52,894 nucleotides of DNA from Campylobacterota bacterium. Its GTDB lineage: Bacteria; Campylobacterota; Campylobacteria; Campylobacterales; Sulfurimonadaceae. The position numbers and the translations under genes were made by a program. The DNA lies in the NCBI GenBank assembly GCA_013607635.1, contig VCAY01000006.1:1-52894 (forward strand), read 5' to 3'. The notes beneath the pieces are model-generated. The model was not told the origin of the DNA and searched no databases. It worked only from the letters and a program-made list of their open reading frames with translations. Below are positions 7,630-16,079 of the stretch, piece by piece (positions within the stretch are counted from its first letter, which is position 1; each line of letters begins with the position of its first letter).

Positions 7630-8802
7630 TTAGAATTTTACTTCTGCTGTTACCATATACTGCGTACCGTTTTCTTTCTCTTTAGCACTGCCAGCCTCAT
7701 TATCGGTAACAATAACATTTGCTACCCACTCAACATTTTTGTTTTGATGCCAGGCTGCACCAACAATATAACCTCTGTCTGCAGGTTCTTTAGCACCCGA
7801 TACTTGTTCTTTTGTCCAAGAGTCGTAACGAGCAAGTAATTTATACTCTTTATCTGCACCCATACGGTACTCACCGTTTACAGAGTAACCAGAACCAGCT
7901 TGCCCAGATACATTATTAGCAATCTTTGAAGTATTATCAGAGTAAACATACTGTGCTGCTACCAAAAAGGATGGTTGGTTGTAAACAGTATGTAGTCCAC
8001 CAAAAATTAAATCTTGATTTTCCGTTTGTGTCCCAACTGTAACAGTTTTATGCCCTTTATTGTATTGACCAAAGAAAGAGGTATCCCAGTATGTTTTCTT
8101 TGTCTGTTTATCTTTACCGTTTACTCCAAGAATATGCGCAGTTGTTCTCCACTCAAAACTCATGCCGTTTCCATTACTAGCAGAATGATAACCTTCACCA
8201 TTGAAGATTCCGTAATCAGCATCGAAGTATTGTGTTTTCGTTTTAAACATTACACCAAAATCAGCAGAGTTTGATAAATCAGGTCCATGCTTTTTATCTT
8301 CAATAAGTACTTTAGAGATACTTCTGTAATACCAAGCATTATGCTCTTCATAATCATGCCAAGGACGATGCACAAGACCCATTTCAACACCCGTATGAGC
8401 AAAAATATCATTCAAATAAAGATATGCATATTTTGCACGAACTTTTTCATCACCGACAACATCTTTACTCACATCAAATGTTACACGATAGTAAGATTTC
8501 GGGTCATCCAAAAGGTATGCTTTTACTTGAAAATAAGCACGACGGATCTCAAAATCTTGCGTAGATGGTGTTGCAGCATCTGAATAATTTGTATATTTAT
8601 ACCCTAGAAAAGTCTGACCAGAAAATTTCAGTTTGTCTGCATGAGAAAAAACTGAAGTATCAGACTTTATCTCTGTACGCCCCTCACCCGCTTTTGTAAA
8701 GACCTTAGCGTTTTCATCTTGATAAAGAGTCACATCACCTGCATTTGCAACAACTGCACCGAGAGTTAAAACAGCCAAAGCTGATAAAACAATTCTTTTC
8801 AT
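7630..8802 (-). CDS. outer-membrane porin, phosphate-starvation regulated
   Basis: 390 residues. A clear signal peptide (residues 1-21, ending VVANA) precedes a mature protein rich in alternating, aromatic-containing beta strands. It ends in Phe (TAEVKF), the usual outer-membrane beta-barrel signal. The start ATG at 8802 has AAGGGA upstream. The strongest clue to function is its promoter, which has a Pho box and mirrors the pstS promoter on the other side of the intergenic region. I infer that it admits phosphate or polyphosphate, as PhoE and OprP/OprO do, possibly through an OprP-like fold. The sequence does not by itself prove that family. Confidence 0.75.
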   Translation of the reverse strand: MKRIVLSALAVLTLGAVVANAGDVTLYQDENAKVFTKAGEGRTEIKSDTSVFSHADKLKFSGQTFLGYKYTNYSDAATPSTQDFEIRRAYFQVKAYLLDDPKSYYRVTFDVSKDVVGDEKVRAKYAYLYLNDIFAHTGVEMGLVHRPWHDYEEHNAWYYRSISKVLIEDKKHGPDLSNSADFGVMFKTKTQYFDADYGIFNGEGYHSASNGNGMSFEWRTTAHILGVNGKDKQTKKTYWDTSFFGQYNKGHKTVTVGTQTENQDLIFGGLHTVYNQPSFLVAAQYVYSDNTSKIANNVSGQAGSGYSVNGEYRMGADKEYKLLARYDSWTKEQVSGAKEPADRGYIVGAAWHQNKNVEWVANVIVTDNEAGSAKEKENGTQYMVTAEVKF

Positions 8803-8832
8803 TTCATTATCCCTTTTTGTTTGTTGGGCGGA

Positions 8833-8866
8833 AGTATAAAACAACTTGGTTACAAAAAGATTACAA
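8833..8866 (-). promoter_or_regulatory. Pho box and -10 of the porin
   Basis: Read on the minus strand, TTGTAATC-N3-TTGTAAC (8866-8849) is two direct repeats 11 bp apart, as in a PhoB-type box. It is followed after exactly 10 nt by TATACT (8838-8833). In the other orientation the same site reads GTTAC-N6-ATTAC, close to the C. jejuni PhosR box as I recall it (GTTTC-N6-GTTTC). Confidence 0.75.
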
Positions 8867-8879
8867 TATCACCCCTTGG

Positions 8880-8913
8880 CTGTAATCGTTTTGTAATCTA
8901 ACTGTTTTATACT
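8880..8913 (+). promoter_or_regulatory. Pho box and -10 of pstS
   Basis: CTGTAATC-N3-TTGTAAT (8880-8897), a 10-nt gap, then TATACT (8908-8913). It is a near mirror image of the porin promoter in the same 144-bp divergent region. No -35 hexamer is evident; the box occupies that position, as in activator-dependent Pho promoters. Confidence 0.78.
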
Positions 8914-8946
8914 TCCACAACTTCAAAAATTATAAAGGTGGAACAA

Positions 8947-9951
8947 ATGAAAAAAGTGATCAAAATTGCTCTTGCAACTTCAGTTTTGGCTACTAGCTTA
9001 CTAGCTAACGATATTATTAAAGGTAGTGGGGCTTCTTTTCCATACAGTGTATATAATGCGTGGACAAAAGAGTACTTCAAAGCAACAGGCAACAAAGTTG
9101 ACTACATCTCCAAAGGTTCTTCCAAAGGGATCAAAGATGCTAAAGCAAGACAAGTAGATTTTGCAGGAACCGACAAGCCACTCTCCCCTAAAGTGTTAAA
9201 AAAACACTCTCTTTATCAGTTTCCCGGTGTTGTTGGTGCAATCACTATGGGTTATAACATCCCGGGTGTAGATGGTCTAAAACTCAGCCGCGCTGCTATT
9301 GTAGCGATCAGTGAAGGCAAAGTTGCGTTTTGGGATGATGCTATCATCGCTGCGGCGAACAAAGATCTTAAACTCCCTCATAAACCTGTTACTTTCGTTC
9401 ACAGAGCAGATGGTTCAGGAACAACATACAACTACACTTACTTTCTTAGCAAAGTTTCAAAAGAGTGGAGAAAACACTACGGTGCAAAAAAATCACTCAA
9501 CTGGCCAGGAAACCATCATATCGGCGGAAACAAAAACACAGGTGTAGCAAGCCTTATCAAACAAACACCTTACTCTGTCGGCTACATCGACTATGCTGAT
9601 GCAAAACACAACGATATCGTTATGGCAAGTGTTGAGAACAAAGAGGGTAACTACATCAAACCAGAACTCTCTGCTTTTCAAGCCGCAGCAGCAAAAGCCA
9701 ACTTGGATCCTAAAAAAGATTTTTATGCAGTGATTGCCGATCCAAAGGGAGCAAACTCTTACCCTATCGTTGCGGCAACATTCATTTTAGTACCTGCTGA
9801 GAAGCCTGAGATGAATAAAAAAGTCACAGCATTTTACGACTGGGCATACAAAAACGCTCAAGAGAGTGCTAAAAGCCTTGGATTTGTTCCACTCCCCGAT
9901 GCTTTAACAAGCAAGATCAGAAAATACTGGGATACCAAGGGTATCCACTAA
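8947..9951 (+). CDS. pstS: phosphate ABC transporter, periplasmic binding protein PstS
   Basis: Periplasmic high-affinity phosphate receptor that delivers Pi to PstCAB. It has 334 residues with a signal peptide at 1-20 (ALATSVLATSLLA, cleavage before ND). Ligand loops visible are IKGSGASFPYSVY, ISKGSSKGIKDA, DFAGTDKPLS and RADGSGTTYNYT. The start ATG at 8947 is preceded by AAAGGTGG; the frame could begin with GTG at 8938, but that codon is inside the ribosome binding site. It is controlled by the Pho box at 8880-8897. A second Pho promoter begins one base after its stop, so pstS can be expressed apart from the rest. Confidence 0.95.
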   Translation: MKKVIKIALATSVLATSLLANDIIKGSGASFPYSVYNAWTKEYFKATGNKVDYISKGSSKGIKDAKARQVDFAGTDKPLSPKVLKKHSLYQFPGVVGAITMGYNIPGVDGLKLSRAAIVAISEGKVAFWDDAIIAAANKDLKLPHKPVTFVHRADGSGTTYNYTYFLSKVSKEWRKHYGAKKSLNWPGNHHIGGNKNTGVASLIKQTPYSVGYIDYADAKHNDIVMASVENKEGNYIKPELSAFQAAAAKANLDPKKDFYAVIADPKGANSYPIVAATFILVPAEKPEMNKKVTAFYDWAYKNAQESAKSLGFVPLPDALTSKIRKYWDTKGIH

Positions 9952-9952
9952 G

Positions 9953-9986
9953 CTGTAATCTCTTTGTAATCTATTTTTACTATAAT
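9953..9986 (+). promoter_or_regulatory. internal Pho box and -10 of pstC
   Basis: CTGTAATC-N3-TTGTAAT (9953-9970), again followed after 10 nt by a perfect TATAAT (9981-9986). The box starts one nucleotide after the pstS stop codon. It gives the membrane and regulatory genes their own phosphate-controlled promoter with a leader of about 25 nt. Confidence 0.78.
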
Positions 9987-10016: not shown

Positions 10017-10958
10017 ATGGAAAAACTTTTTCAAAAGATCTCATTTATCAGTGCTTCTTTAGTACTTGTTTTACTGCTTGGTATATTTAGTGTGCTTTTT
10101 ATGCAAGCAAAACCGGCTATTGATGCGTTTGGTCTTGGATTTATCACCGACAAACGATGGAACCAGGAAATTCCGCTTGATAATGGCGCTGCACCACAGA
10201 CAATAACCCAAGAGGTTGATGCAGATGATGAGGAGATGATCCTTGATGAAGATGATGAGGAGGTGGAGACAACAACTGTTTATGGTGGTCTTGTGCCTAT
10301 CCTTGGGACAATCTTCTCTACCCTCATTGCCCTTACTTTTGCCCTGCCTATTGCGATGGGGATCGCCGTTTTTTTAGCGGAGATGGCTTCTAAAAATGTA
10401 GCAAAATATGTCGGTATCGCTATCGAGCTTCTAGCAGCGATCCCAAGTATCATTTTTGGGATGTGGGGGCTTTACTATTTTGCGCCGATCATTGCCGATA
10501 GTTTTGGAGGTTTTCAGGTCTCACTCCTTACTGCCGGACTTGTTCTTGGAGTTATGATCCTGCCGTTTATGGCAGCTATCACACGCGATAGTATGAACAC
10601 CACTCCAGATGTGCTTAAAGAATCAGCTTATGCACTGGGAGCTACAAAGTTTGAGGTGGTTAAAGATGTCATTTTTCCATACTCCAAAGTGGGCATCATC
10701 GGTTCAATCATCTTAGCACTTGGTCGCGCACTGGGTGAGACGATGGCGGTTGCGTTTCTTATCGGTGCGGTTTATTCGATCCCCCAAAAGATCACCGATC
10801 CCACCATCTCGATCCCTGTTGCTATGGCTGTGAATTTTGGAGAGGCGAGCGGGCTTGGGGAGAATGCGCTTTTTTACCTTGGGATGTTGCTGTTTATCTT
10901 AAGTTTTGGTTTTATAGCGTTTGCGAAGTTCTACTTTCTTCAAAGGTCAAAAATATGA
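10017..10958 (+). CDS. pstC: phosphate ABC transporter permease PstC
   Basis: One of the two membrane channel subunits of the Pst importer. It has 313 residues with an N-terminal TM helix (10-29), then five more helices and the EAA-type loop (ALGATKFEVVKDVIFPYSKVG). An odd feature is a strongly acidic stretch at residues 66-84, with 13 Asp/Glu out of 19, placed in the periplasmic loop between TM1 and TM2 where PstS docks. I choose ATG 10017; an in-frame TTG at 10011 is also possible. The 3' end overlaps pstA by 4 nt (ATGA). Confidence 0.93.
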   Translation: MEKLFQKISFISASLVLVLLLGIFSVLFMQAKPAIDAFGLGFITDKRWNQEIPLDNGAAPQTITQEVDADDEEMILDEDDEEVETTTVYGGLVPILGTIFSTLIALTFALPIAMGIAVFLAEMASKNVAKYVGIAIELLAAIPSIIFGMWGLYYFAPIIADSFGGFQVSLLTAGLVLGVMILPFMAAITRDSMNTTPDVLKESAYALGATKFEVVKDVIFPYSKVGIIGSIILALGRALGETMAVAFLIGAVYSIPQKITDPTISIPVAMAVNFGEASGLGENALFYLGMLLFILSFGFIAFAKFYFLQRSKI

Positions 10959-11758
10959 GACTCGTTGTCAATAAAATATTTTTACTCCTCTCGATCACCT
11001 CTGCGCTTATTGGTTTGGGGTTTTTAGGCTGGATACTTATCACGATCTTTATCAACGGTATCAGCTCGATCCATCTTGGACTTTTTCTTGACGATCTCGT
11101 TGACGGGGGTCTTAGAAACCTCATCATAGGGCAGCTCATCTTAGCGCTTCTTGCCGGAGTGATCGGTGTACCGCTTGGGATGGTCGCTGGGATCTACATC
11201 AGAGAGTATGGCAGAGGAAAGTACGCAACCTTCATCCGCGATCTTAGTGATATTATGATGTCCACCCCCTCAATCGTGATCGGTGCTTTTGTGTATGCTT
11301 TTGCTGTGGCACCTTACGGTGGAGCCAACGGTTTTGCGGGTGTGATCGCACTCTGTATTATGATGATCCCTATCATTGTCAACACAACCGACTCGATGCT
11401 CTCACTCGTTCCAAAAGAGCTTCGTGAAGCGGGGATAGCACTTGGTGCTTCAAAATATAGAGTTATTTTGGATATTGTTATAAAAGCGGCAAAAGTTGGG
11501 ATCATGACTGGAATCCTCCTTGCCTTTGCAAGGATAGCGGGTGAAACAGCACCACTGCTTTTTACATCAGAGACGAGCAACTATTTTAGTCTCGATCTTC
11601 GTGATAGTTTTCCATCATTAACGGTGAGTATCTACAACCTAGCCAACGAACCGCAACAATCAAGCCGCGATCTAGCATGGGCAGCTTCGTTTATCTTAAC
11701 AGTGCTTGTATTGCTTATCAACCTCACAGGTAGATTTATCACAAGAAACAAAAAATAA
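10955..11758 (+). CDS. pstA: phosphate ABC transporter permease PstA
   Basis: Second channel subunit of the Pst importer. It has 267 residues with six hydrophobic segments, the loop IYIREYGRGKYATFIRDL and the conserved cytoplasmic EAGIALGASKYRVILDIVI, which couples to PstB. It also carries the AGETAPLLFT stretch characteristic of PstA. It starts on the 4-nt overlap with pstC, so translation is coupled and equal amounts of the two permeases can be expected. pstB follows after 15 nt. Confidence 0.94.
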   Translation: MRLVVNKIFLLLSITSALIGLGFLGWILITIFINGISSIHLGLFLDDLVDGGLRNLIIGQLILALLAGVIGVPLGMVAGIYIREYGRGKYATFIRDLSDIMMSTPSIVIGAFVYAFAVAPYGGANGFAGVIALCIMMIPIIVNTTDSMLSLVPKELREAGIALGASKYRVILDIVIKAAKVGIMTGILLAFARIAGETAPLLFTSETSNYFSLDLRDSFPSLTVSIYNLANEPQQSSRDLAWAASFILTVLVLLINLTGRFITRNKK

Positions 11759-11773
11759 TTAAGGATCTATCTT

Positions 11774-12556
11774 ATGGATGTAATGAAAATCAAAAAATTC
11801 TCTTTTACCTACGCAGGAGTTGATCACCCATCACTCAAAAACATCACCCTGCCGATCGAGCAAAACAAGATCACAGCACTCATCGGCCCTAGTGGATGTG
11901 GTAAATCAACACTGCTTCGCTCACTCAATCGTATCCATGATCTTTATCCCGGCAACAAGTATGACGGCAAGATCGAACTGCTTGATCTTCAAACCGGCAA
12001 GTACAACAACATCTTAGAGATCAAAAAAGAGAACCAATTTATCAAACTACGCCAACAGGTGGGGATGATTTTTCAAAAACCAACTCCGTTTCCTATGAGT
12101 ATCTTTGAGAATGTGGCGTATGGTCTAAAAATTGCCGGCATTAAAAACAAAACAGAACTCCAAGACAGAGTTGAAGCGGCCATCAAAGGTGCGGCACTCT
12201 TTAAAGAGGTAAACGACAGACTCGATCGCTCCGCAATGGGGCTCTCTGGTGGACAGCAACAGCGTCTGTGTATTGCACGTGCCGTTGCAGTCAAACCTGA
12301 AGTGCTTTTGTTTGATGAGCCAACATCAGCGCTTGACCCTATCAGCACAGGTGCGATCGAGGAGTTGATCGTGGAGCTTAAAAAAGATGTAAGCATCGCT
12401 ATTGTGACACACAACATGCAGCAAGCCAGCCGTATCAGCGACTACACTGCATTTATGTACCTTGGGGATCTGGTTGAGTTTGACAAAACTGCAACAATCT
12501 TTTTAAACCCATCAGAGCAACAAACAGAAGATTATATCACCGGAAGATTCGGATAA
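11774..12556 (+). CDS. pstB: phosphate ABC transporter ATP-binding protein PstB
   Basis: ATPase that drives phosphate import. It has 260 residues with Walker [11 protein letters not shown]-loop [13 protein letters not shown] (the PTPFPMSI is typical of PstB), signature LSGGQQQR, Walker [14 protein letters not shown] and the H-loop IVTHNM. AAGGA precedes the ATG at proper spacing. It works as a dimer on the cytoplasmic face of PstCA. In PhoB/PhoR-type systems it also relays transporter state to PhoU, which is the next gene, 12 nt on. Confidence 0.95.
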
Positions 12557-12568
12557 AAAAGGAGCACT

Positions 12569-13234
12569 ATGTTAGCAACATTTAAAACAAGCCTGGAGGA
12601 TGTCAAGACAAAGATCACCAACATCGGTAACGACCTCATCAAAGCCAACGAAACGATCGCTGAAGCGATTACAGATTGTGATACGCAGAGATTCAACAAA
12701 GCGCGATCTTATGTAAAAAACATTAGCGCAAAAACCAATGAGATCGATAACGCCATCATTAAAATCTTGGCACTCTACACTCCTGAAGCAAGAGATCTCA
12801 GACAAGTTGTAGCTTATTTCAAGATCACCAACGAGCTTGCCCGTGCCTGTTCAAACACAAGAAGCTTCATTCGAGGTTTTAGTGATGTTTGCAGGGAGCT
12901 TGATGTGGAGATGATTCAAGAGTACGCTGTTGCTATGCAGCGCTCAACCATCAAAGCAGCTACAATAGCAGTGAGCATGATCAACTGTGAAGATGCAGAT
13001 GAGCTTCAAGAACACTACGAAGAGGTGCTCATTGAAGAGAACAAAACAGATGATCTCTACACCATGCTTGAGAAAAACCTCATCCAAAAAGCAGAAAGCT
13101 CCAGTGGTGAGTTTGAGAAATACCACAGAATGCTTCGTGCCCTTCGCAAAAGTGAAAAAGTAGCCGGTCGAGCGATCTCTATGGCAAACCTTCTGCTTTA
13201 TGCAAAAGTTGGTGGAGAGCTTCACGCTTCATAA
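12569..13234 (+). CDS. phoU: phosphate signalling regulator PhoU
   Basis: 221 residues, all helical, built as two PhoU-type three-helix repeats (about 5-100 and 110-210). The metal-binding acidic patches are around RDLRQVVAYFKITNELAR and ENKTDDLYTMLEKN. PhoU joins the Pst transporter to the sensor kinase and shuts down the Pho response when phosphate is plentiful. AGGAGC precedes the ATG. The sensor kinase gene starts 3 nt after its stop, in keeping with a direct functional pairing. Confidence 0.88.
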   Translation: MLATFKTSLEDVKTKITNIGNDLIKANETIAEAITDCDTQRFNKARSYVKNISAKTNEIDNAIIKILALYTPEARDLRQVVAYFKITNELARACSNTRSFIRGFSDVCRELDVEMIQEYAVAMQRSTIKAATIAVSMINCEDADELQEHYEEVLIEENKTDDLYTMLEKNLIQKAESSSGEFEKYHRMLRALRKSEKVAGRAISMANLLLYAKVGGELHAS

Positions 13235-13237
13235 GTT

Positions 13238-14623
13238 ATGAAAAAGTTGCTAAAGTTTCATGAGATCATCTTACGAAAGTTTTTAGCACTTTTTGCCACC
13301 CTTTTTATCATTGTAGGGGCTATTGTCTATTTTTGGGAATACGACTTTTACCTCGAATCCTCCAAAGACTCACTTATCCAAGATATTGAATTACTCTCTT
13401 ACTCTCTTGATGCTAGCAGTGATCTTGACAAACTCGCCAAGAAAGTTAAGCAAAACCTCGATCTTCGACTCACTATCATCGATGCTGATGGCAAAGTGAT
13501 CGCAGAATCACATAAAGACAAGACCAAAATGGAGAACCACCGCTACCGCAAAGAGATTATGATGAGTGACAAAGAGCCTTACGGTGTTGTTGTCAGAGAC
13601 TCCAAAACGGTTGGTAAAAAACTCCAATATGTTGCAAAAAAAATAACACTTCACGGCAAAACGATCTACATAAGACTTGCCCGTGAACTTCGGGGGATCA
13701 ACGAAGAGATCATCCAGCTTGCTATCAAAATATTTTCGGTACTGCTGCTCTTTTTTGCCGCAGTATTTTTTACAACCTATAAAATCAATGCTCAGGTTGA
13801 GCAAGAGGTGAGCAAGATTATCTCATTTCTTAAATCTCTAACAAAAAAACAAAAATCCACTTACATCTCCTCTGAGTTTTCTCAGGAGTTTGCACTTATC
13901 ACTTCACTGCTGACAAAGATTGCCCAGATCATTGCAAAAAAAGAGAAAAGGAAAAGCAAATATACCCAGCAACTCCAAAAACTTAATAAACAAAAAGATG
14001 ATATCATCTCCGCGATCTCGCACGAGTTTAAAAACCCGATCGCTGTGATTAACGGCTACACGCAAACCCTTCTTGACGATCCACAGATCAATCCAAATAT
14101 CCGTCAAAAATTTCTTGGCAAGATCCACTCGAACGGTATGAAACTCTCAAGTCTGATCGACACTCTACGCCTCTCACTCAAGCTTGATTCCAAACAACAA
14201 TCACTCTCACTTGAAGAGTGCAGCATCAACGAACTAGTTGATGAGTGTATTGAGGGCTTAAAACTCAACTATCCTCGCCGCGAGATCGTTATAGAGGGTG
14301 AAAATGTAGCGATCAAAGCCGACAAAACAATGCTTGGCATCGTCATTACCAACTTAATAGAAAATGCCTTAAAATATTCAGAGGATGAAGTGGTTGTAAG
14401 AATCACACAAAAACAGCTAGATGTGATCGACAGTGGGATTGGAATCGGTAAAAAAGAGCTTGAGAGGATCACCGACAAATTCTACCGTGTCAATAAAAAC
14501 ACGTGGAACAACTCACTCGGACTTGGTCTGTTTTTAGTTGAGAACATCCTCAAACTCCACAACTTCAAACTCAAGATTAAAAGTGAGCCCAATAAAGGTT
14601 CTACCTTTTCAATTATTTTTTAA
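13238..14623 (+). CDS. membrane sensor histidine kinase, PhoR/PhosS-like
   Basis: 461 residues: TM1 at about 14-34, a periplasmic domain of about 130 residues, TM2 at about 165-185, then HisKA with the phospho-acceptor His262 (SHEFKNP) and an HATPase domain (N-box NLIENALKYS, G1 DSGIGIG, G2 GLGLFLV). Its place directly after phoU, under Pho-box control, makes it the phosphate-responsive kinase by inference. A large periplasmic domain differs from E. coli PhoR but fits the C. jejuni PhosS type. No response-regulator gene follows; a toxin operon runs into it from the other strand with a 4-nt overlap. Confidence 0.85.
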   Translation: MKKLLKFHEIILRKFLALFATLFIIVGAIVYFWEYDFYLESSKDSLIQDIELLSYSLDASSDLDKLAKKVKQNLDLRLTIIDADGKVIAESHKDKTKMENHRYRKEIMMSDKEPYGVVVRDSKTVGKKLQYVAKKITLHGKTIYIRLARELRGINEEIIQLAIKIFSVLLLFFAAVFFTTYKINAQVEQEVSKIISFLKSLTKKQKSTYISSEFSQEFALITSLLTKIAQIIAKKEKRKSKYTQQLQKLNKQKDDIISAISHEFKNPIAVINGYTQTLLDDPQINPNIRQKFLGKIHSNGMKLSSLIDTLRLSLKLDSKQQSLSLEECSINELVDECIEGLKLNYPRREIVIEGENVAIKADKTMLGIVITNLIENALKYSEDEVVVRITQKQLDVIDSGIGIGKKELERITDKFYRVNKNTWNNSLGLGLFLVENILKLHNFKLKIKSEPNKGSTFSIIF

Positions 14624-15057
14624 TGGGATACGGATTCAATTATTTTTAATTTTAATGATTCACTAAACTCATCCTCTTGGATAATCGAATGTATAATTTC
14701 AAGCAGTAATGTATCTGTTATTTTTCCTTCTGCCAACCATACCACAATCTCTTCCATCTCTTGAACAAATCTATTGACACAATAACCATAGCCATTGAGT
14801 TGCAAAAAATAAGCACCTAACACCAAACTAGAGCGTTTATTACCATCAGTAAAGGGATGAAATTTATTCACAGCATAGACTAAGTGTTTTAATTTTTCTT
14901 CAAATGATGGGTAATAATCATTATTTTGGATATGTTCCAAAGTGCTATCAAGAAATCCTATTTCACGATACCCATGCAATCCCCCACTATTATCTATAAT
15001 CCAGTCGTGTACTTCAACGGCATGTTTAGTGTCAAAATAAAAGATTGAAGTCTCCAT
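14620..15057 (-). CDS. Doc-type Fic toxin (death-on-curing family)
   Basis: 145 residues with the Fic/Doc catalytic loop HPFTDGNKR at 67-75, preceded by a helix typical of Doc (LKHLVYAVNKF). The length is close to phage P1 Doc (126 residues). Doc proteins phosphorylate elongation factor Tu and stop translation; whether this one is a kinase or an AMP-transferase cannot be read from sequence. No Phd-type antitoxin is beside it. Instead it follows, after 5 nt, a 338-residue DNA-binding protein that is the likely neutralising or regulating partner. Its 3' end overlaps that of the phosphate sensor kinase. Confidence 0.82.
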   Translation of the reverse strand: METSIFYFDTKHAVEVHDWIIDNSGGLHGYREIGFLDSTLEHIQNNDYYPSFEEKLKHLVYAVNKFHPFTDGNKRSSLVLGAYFLQLNGYGYCVNRFVQEMEEIVVWLAEGKITDTLLLEIIHSIIQEDEFSESLKLKIIESVSH

Positions 15058-15062
15058 CTGTA

Positions 15063-16079
15063 CTATCTATCTTTCAATCTTTTTAAAACGGCAAGCGTTT
15101 CAGGATCGGAAAGTCTCTCTTGAAGAGATTTACTTGTCTCTCCTAAAAACTTGTCAAAATCATCTTGCGACACCGATTGAATATAACTCTCCAATTTATG
15201 GTGCAAGGCATCTCTAAAACATAAATCTCGACTTGCCATCTTGACTCTGGCATCATTGATATGTGGTACCAAATAAGGATTTTTTGAAGCTTCATCAATA
15301 AGCGCATCAAGCTCTTTTTGTGTGAGTTTTCTCCCAAGTTTTTCAAACTTCTGCTTCATCTCAACAGCCAATCCATGTTCAAAACTAGCTATAGCATTGA
15401 GTACCTCTGCATACATGGTCTCTCTTATTTTATCTTTTTGCTGTAGTGCTAAAATCTTTTTATATTCAGCGGCATTTTCTAAAAAAATCACTTCATAGAT
15501 GCGATTAGTATACTTCCCATATTTCCAGTTCTCAGCCCGAAGATAAAAATCAAGAGCGTCTGTAAACTCTTTTCTGTAATTATACTCTTTATAAGTCGAT
15601 GGTAAATAGGCTTCATCTCTTTGGTTAATATATTTTGTATGGCCTCCTGATTTTTGAGCCATCACATCAAGAACAATATCGAGTATCTTGTTTCGTATCT
15701 CTTTTGCCCTTTGACTCTCTGTGACCAACATGGCAATATTAAGTACTGTCCTAAAAGAGAATACCCCTAATGAAGGCACTTTAGAGATGTCGGCGACATT
15801 GATGTCGTCGAGTAAGATTTTTTTAAGTTCTCTAAGTTGCGGACCTTTTATAACTCTATATCCATGTTTAGACAACTCTTCACTGTGACTTTCTATGTAT
15901 CTGTCTATTGTCCTCTCATCAATATCCAAAATTTCAGCCACTTGCGCTTTGGTAAATATCATCTCGTCATGCCAATAGACCCCATTTAATGGAAGATTTG
16001 ATTCAATTTGTTCTAAAGCAAAACCATTATTAAGTATATTTTGTCTGCTAATAGTTGATGTTGTTAAATCTTTAGTCAT
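15063..16079 (-). CDS. RhuM-like DNA-binding protein, presumed partner of Doc
   Basis: 338 residues. The segment YWHDEMIFTKAQVAEILDID (34-53), then ERTIDRYI, looks like the helix-turn-helix of RhuM-family proteins. Residues 100-135 (VFSFRTVLNIAMLVTESQRA) also fit a RhuM/phage-antirepressor-like core. The C-terminal half is charged and helical with no recognised domain. RhuM and Fic/Doc domains occur fused in some bacteria, so adjacent separate genes support a joint function. This is much larger than normal antitoxins. AGGAG precedes the ATG, which overlaps the stop of a 21-codon ORF (TAATG). Confidence 0.65.
   Translation of the reverse strand: MTKDLTTSTISRQNILNNGFALEQIESNLPLNGVYWHDEMIFTKAQVAEILDIDERTIDRYIESHSEELSKHGYRVIKGPQLRELKKILLDDINVADISKVPSLGVFSFRTVLNIAMLVTESQRAKEIRNKILDIVLDVMAQKSGGHTKYINQRDEAYLPSTYKEYNYRKEFTDALDFYLRAENWKYGKYTNRIYEVIFLENAAEYKKILALQQKDKIRETMYAEVLNAIASFEHGLAVEMKQKFEKLGRKLTQKELDALIDEASKNPYLVPHINDARVKMASRDLCFRDALHHKLESYIQSVSQDDFDKFLGETSKSLQERLSDPETLAVLKRLKDR

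Follow-up and report, generated by a model that had tools for sequence, protein, structure and literature searches.

Putative PhoB-type promoters with a TGTAAY core at the porin, pstS, and pstC genes of Sulfurimonas and phased spacing of divergent Pho boxes

The PhoB boxes of Escherichia coli (pstS, phoA, and phoE) are built of direct half-sites repeated with an 11-bp period, keep one strand orientation to the promoter, and lie directly upstream of the -10 element, serving pst, phoU, porin, and phoB genes. Direct repeats of 11 bp constitute the published structure of the Pho box, the consensus of which differs from species to species (review, PMC4415409), and strict spacing from box to promoter was reported for E. 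coli PhoB (PMC10294691). The Sulfurimonas sites described here have all these traits in common with E. coli and differ from it in the core (TGTAAY versus TGTCAT), in a second box placed before pstC, in the location of the putative PhoB gene apart from the kinase, and in the porin, which belongs to a family other than PhoE. In Bacillus subtilis, PhoP boxes are TTAACA-type repeats, likewise periodic over 11 bp and used by a phosphate regulator, but their strand orientation is another one. For Campylobacter jejuni, belonging to the same order as Sulfurimonas, Wosten et al. are said to have described in 2006 a phosphate-responsive OmpR-family system, PhosS/PhosR, controlling pst. Searches of the literature library used here returned nothing for the PhosR consensus and no description of the Sulfurimonas Pho regulon.

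The window, i.e., the whole stretch of DNA analyzed here, encompasses 52,894 nucleotides of contig C66, in which a branched-chain aminotransferase gene is followed by the porin (minus strand) and then by pstS-pstC-pstA-pstB-phoU-histidine kinase (plus strand). The features under consideration are the following.

7630..8802, minus strand: gene of a 390-aa outer-membrane porin from an unclassified family, running divergently to pstS; AlphaFold model, Foldseek
8865 to 8833, minus strand: porin Pho-box promoter, box through -10, TGTAATCTTTTTGTAACCAAGTTGTTTTATACT; direct reading
8833..8838, minus strand: porin -10 hexamer TATACT, 10 nt from the box; direct reading
8849..8865, minus strand: porin Pho box TGTAATCTTTTTGTAAC, two half-sites, period 11; direct reading, genome scan, relatives
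8866..8880, no strand: 15-bp spacer separating the back-to-back Pho boxes; relatives repeat the length but not the sequence
8881-8913, plus strand: pstS Pho-box promoter, box through -10, TGTAATCGTTTTGTAATCTAACTGTTTTATACT; direct reading
8881..8897, plus strand: pstS Pho box TGTAATCGTTTTGTAAT; direct reading, genome scan, conservation in relatives
8908..8913, plus strand: pstS -10 hexamer TATACT; direct reading, 10-nt spacing in 77/80 relatives
8947..9951, plus strand: pstS, phosphate-binding protein, PBP_like_2 (domain match 2.9e-33)
9954-9986, plus strand: pstC Pho-box promoter, box through -10, TGTAATCTCTTTGTAATCTATTTTTACTATAAT; direct reading
9954..9970, plus strand: pstC Pho box TGTAATCTCTTTGTAAT; direct reading, genome scan, kept in Sulfurimonas relatives
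9981..9986, plus strand: pstC -10 hexamer TATAAT; direct reading
10017..12556, plus strand: pstC, pstA, and pstB, phosphate ABC transporter (two BPD_transp_1, ABC_tran; order conserved)
12569..13234, plus strand: phoU (PhoU match 4.7e-11)
13238..14623, plus strand: PhoR-like sensor histidine kinase, last gene of the pst operon (sCache_like, HisKA, and HATPase)

Direct reading gives one and the same pattern, TGTAAY-N5-TGTAAY-N10-TATA(C/A)T, at porin, pstS, and pstC, with the repeat period of 11 bp and exactly 10 nt from box to -10 in 3/3 promoters, so that the common geometry proposed in the first-pass annotation agrees with every site. The mirror-image pair, which it had placed in a 144-bp divergent region, is borne out by the coordinates (8803-8946 between the ATG of porin and the ATG of pstS) and by a 36-nt inverted repeat, 86% complementary with arms 15 nt apart, formed by both promoters. 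The third site, opening with CTGTAATC, indeed begins one base past the pstS stop codon (TAA at 9949-9951), and the leading C of this motif, shared by pstS and pstC, is absent at porin, where the site reads ATTGTAATC. All three sites thus have the direct half-sites with 11-bp period characteristic of Pho boxes; as in PhoB-type promoters, the box occupies the place of the -35 element with -10 at fixed spacing (3/3 here and 77/80 relatives), and the sites are confined to phosphate-acquisition genes instead of being scattered over the genome. The E. coli core CTGTCAT is replaced here by TGTAAY, which does not exclude PhoB-type membership because the consensus varies between species (PMC4415409). 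We therefore regard the Sulfurimonas sites as promoters of a known kind, PhoB-type, with a clade-specific core. Within the last codons of pstS (9930-9946), just 5′ of the pstC box, there is a perfect 7-bp hairpin GGATACC-AAG-GGTATCC; the search for a terminator between the pstS 3′ end and the box revealed only this coding-sequence hairpin, ordinary in comparison with shuffled sequences (z -0.75).

The genome, a metagenome-assembled one (MAG) of 1.405 Mb and 92% completeness, contains three exact matches to the 18-bp operator TGTAAYCNNNTTGTAAYC, all of them at porin, pstS, and pstC, given a chance expectation from base composition of 0.024 for the operator and 0.002 for the operator together with -10. 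The random scatter of the motif, named beforehand as an outcome speaking against its operator function, was thus not observed. Allowing up to three mismatches over operator and -10 added five weak sites (0 in the reversed control), and none of the sites with 2-3 mismatches over the whole genome was convincing as a further regulon member. The motif had initially been taken for the operator of this organism; it actually extends to the genus and most of the family. Operator and -10 with no more than one mismatch are found in 110/151 family genomes, the reversed control being almost always zero. As an unbiased test set, regions upstream of pstS from 110 family genomes were used, with the box scored over 12 positions: it is present with up to one mismatch in 80/110 and with up to two in 108/110, and in a control stretch 620-800 bp upstream in 1/108. 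Among the 80 regions of the stricter group, the distance to -10 is 10 nt in 77 and 11 nt in 3, and the start codon of pstS in the family set is located 59-90 bp, mostly 63-69 bp, past the box start. In most Sulfurimonas relatives with pstC as the very next gene after pstS, the pstC box is kept as well, its distance to pstC being usually 60-65 bp and that to the pstS stop variable. The PstS protein of the window is 71-84% identical to that of Sulfurimonas and Helicobacteraceae MAGs, which places the host in Sulfurimonas or near to this genus.

Order-wide comparison detected TGTAAY boxes in families f1, f7, f9, f10, f18, and f20; the regions upstream of pstS contain TGTTAY in f16 and TGTWTC-N5-TGTTTC-N10-TAAATT in f11, where a response-regulator gene is divergent from pstS; in all of them, the boxes are on the same strand and have the same geometry. 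Family f11 (genus g41) is presumed by us to be Campylobacter or Campylobacteraceae on the basis of the PhosR repeat. Under this assumption, the same-strand pstS box of f11 speaks against the idea that the site resembles the C. jejuni PhosR box when read backwards, bridging the two descriptions. What the comparison suggests instead is a series from E. coli through Sulfurimonas to f11, with common orientation and spacing (11-bp period and 10 nt to -10 in f11 as well) and a core that differs, TGTWTCC in the Campylobacter-like f11 versus TGTAAYC in Sulfurimonas. A separate group is formed by loci with a shorter PstS of 275-294 aa (L312-L323 of f14, L343 of f11 genus g50, and L346 and L361 of f15), preceded by TTTACA direct repeats with an 11-bp step in the opposite orientation, typically (f14 and g50) with half-sites at 0, 11, and 33, and then 9 nt to -10. 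These sites retain the TTACA core within another architecture, and the inverted TTTACA repeats of f14 and f15 are closer to the B. subtilis PhoP boxes than the Sulfurimonas sites are. A flip of the operator in the Helicobacter-like f14 was considered and dropped: another regulator or another origin of the transporter is as likely, because its PstS is of another, shorter type.

Boxed genes in relatives include pstS, pstC, phoU, a homologue of the putative regulator described below (contig C15), the PHO4 phosphate transporter, and porins of three kinds, namely, the unclassified family of the window, Porin_O_P, and Porin_5. In family f9, a calcineurin-like phosphoesterase gene has its box cluster in common with a second gene, divergent from it. 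A 570-aa protein with acyltransferase and acetyltransferase domains, presumably a bifunctional ornithine-lipid-synthase-like enzyme judging by the domain layout, is also boxed in relatives, which suggests phosphate-saving membrane lipids there; no gene of this kind was found in the pst region of the window. Taken together, the boxed genes, as far as their sequences tell, are the content expected of a phosphate-starvation regulon. The ornithine-lipid-synthase-like genes (L089 9477-11254, L099 908-2682, and L101 16989-18761, to which the domain scan refers, and a putative 584-aa copy, L102 4369-6182) come immediately after the pst operon. In L157 and L158 (f9, ~1506-1540), overlapping divergent Pho boxes with half-sites 11 bp apart throughout lie between the calcineurin-like phosphoesterase and a glycosyltransferase-like gene, a pair expected for phospholipid replacement, and in L107 (8045-8083), where a porin gene is inserted ahead of pstC, four tandem half-sites with 11-bp steps are found between this gene and pstS. 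In the window itself, two minus-strand genes (14620-16079), one coding for a 145-aa Fic/DOC-domain protein and the other for a 338-aa product that weakly matches a helix-turn-helix domain, are located between the kinase and glutamine synthetase; missing at this place in pst loci of relatives, the pair looks like an inserted module, possibly of toxin-antitoxin or defence nature.

Six proteins with the PF00486 domain are encoded in the genome, and the best candidate for the regulator of the boxes is the OmpR-family response regulator from contig C15 (19880-20554), possessing the receiver and winged-helix OmpR/PhoB effector domains of a PhoB orthologue. Its identity to E. coli PhoB (reference sequence confirmed against PDB chains) is 33%, about the same as for other compared regulators of this genome. 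Since overall identity does not separate the regulators, its assignment as PhoB rests on gene neighbourhood: in ~40 genomes belonging to other genera, the C15 orthologue is encoded no farther than ~2 kb from pstS, i.e., in pst/phoU surroundings, which the gene does not have in this genome. The recognition helix (TVNVAINR; TVDVHIRR in E. coli PhoB and TINTAILR in the regulator of f11) keeps T194, R201, T217, and R219 of E. coli PhoB and carries the D196 to N replacement alongside the core change from TGTCA to TGTAA. No Pho box was found upstream of the C15 gene in this genome. Boxed response-regulator genes near pst occur in L091 (6539-7942, a tandem pair 64% and 50% identical to C15), L089 (19-758), L103 (4821-5569), and L104 (4775-5516), the last three being paralogues with ~50% identity, and suggest autoregulation and duplication of PhoB in relatives. 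The boxes are probably served by the C15 regulator, with the histidine kinase encoded last in the pst operon (13238-14623) as the probable sensor; a homologue of this kinase, 60-68% identical, occupies the same position after phoU in relatives.

The operator, its geometry, its conservation, and the phosphate theme of the regulon emerge from sequence comparison; from these we infer binding of PhoB, activation at low phosphate, pairing of the kinase with C15, and a role of the porin in phosphate entry. As a full explanation, the porin, pstS, and pstC sites are very probably promoters that PhoB activates when phosphate is limiting. A pair of PhoB protomers, arranged head to tail, would occupy the TGTAAY half-sites 11 bp apart and, bound 10 nt upstream of -10, would stand in for the -35 element and bring in sigma70 RNA polymerase. 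From the two divergent promoters, the outer-membrane porin and PstS would be turned on together, and the third promoter, right behind pstS, would add transcription of pstCAB-phoU-kinase.

Recognition of the boxes by another OmpR-family regulator, so that a stress or porin operator merely covers pst, might be supposed from the number of such proteins in the genome and their similar identity to E. coli PhoB, and a further regulator could be missing because the MAG is 92% complete. Yet the genes under box control in relatives are those of phosphate acquisition, the C15 orthologue is the only one found adjoining pstS across genera, and C15 homologues are themselves boxed in relatives, making this supposition very improbable. 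The functional assignment of the porin is a more delicate question. Homologues of the porin have a box of their own at loci away from pst as well, and its membership in the Pho regulon, proposed in the first-pass annotation together with a role in phosphate uptake, appears well supported; it may or may not carry phosphate, its family having only a general 16-strand porin fold. The AlphaFold model, for which six sequences were used, shows 16 beta strands at a mean pLDDT of 65 (low confidence), because of which selectivity is not readable from it, and its best Foldseek matches are porins of OmpT/OmpC/OprP class with TMq up to 0.61, this value being that of OprP (2o4v), in the low-confidence model and with 16 strands common to general porins too. 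Pseudomonas OprP/OprO (PF07396) is a phosphate-regulated outer-membrane porin with a 16-strand barrel, a layout that the low-confidence model suggests for the window porin too; the window porin, however, gave no Pfam match, none to PF07396 (Porin_O_P) up to E 10, and no match in a PDB sequence search. In some relatives, a true PF07396 porin, as OprP/OprO, occupies the same slot, and boxed Porin_O_P and Porin_5 genes are found beside pst; therefore, several porin types fill it. Absence of the Porin_O_P match, structural matches falling on general porins as much as on OprP, and these boxed neighbors in relatives give not quite an even chance to the view that the protein is Pho-regulated without being a phosphate channel, i.e., a pore of general use or one for organic phosphate/polyphosphate, with a role comparable to that of E. 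coli PhoE.

The regularity that is new here is the phased spacing of divergent Pho boxes, for which a literature search revealed nothing. Measured between the two facing half-sites, the gap in exact back-to-back boxes of 228 family genomes is mostly 15 bp, followed by 25 bp. In the unbiased pstS set, an opposite box is located within 120 bp at 40 loci; the gap does not exceed 70 bp at 38 of them, of which 31 fall into 13-16 or 24-26 bp and two more have 5 bp. Centres of half-sites are consequently 11-20-11 or 11-30-11 bp apart, near whole turns given the 11-bp repeat, and recurrence of 15/25-bp gaps across gene pairs with unconserved spacers argues that all four half-sites would lie on one face of the helix. 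A phased bidirectional promoter, where two PhoB dimers or their two RNA polymerases would interact and selection would preserve the phase through changes of gene partner and spacer sequence, is a possible reading, to which we grant slightly less than an even chance. Functionless inheritance of the spacing from one ancestral bidirectional promoter is its main alternative, quite possible though below even, since most cases come from one family and per-genome counts are not independent. It has to be reconciled, however, with recurrence of the spacing at different pairs, such as porin/pstS, pstC/pstS, phoU/pstS (divergent partner in g2, g4, g6, g10, and g14), pstS/Porin_O_P, and, with pstC, porin, Porin_O_P, and Porin_5 all serving as partners of pstS in Sulfurimonas, also away from pstS at porin/97-aa gene and porin/Porin_5 pairs (14-15 bp). 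It recurs as well in genera g1, g4, g6, g10, and g14, family f10 adds two genomes with 15 bp, spacers are 34% identical versus 28% after shuffling, and the two modes differ in length by one helical turn. With one value per genus-partner class, 7/13 fall within 7 of 71 possible gaps (p ~1e-4, an optimistic estimate because the windows 13-16 and 24-26 were picked after the data had been seen).

In terms of the phased promoter, contact between the PhoB dimers, or between the upstream portions of the two polymerases, would account for the spacing kept at these loci. On a wider scale, TGTCAT in E. coli, TGTAAY in Sulfurimonas, and TGTWTCC in the Campylobacter-like family appear as variants of one geometry, and the recognition helix of the regulator changes correspondingly, offering a testable case of operator-regulator co-evolution, and an unclassified porin family becomes tied to phosphate stress. 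A phosphate-starvation operator is thereby given for the genus Sulfurimonas and the greater part of its family, from which Pho regulons may be read in genomes, those of uncultured members included.
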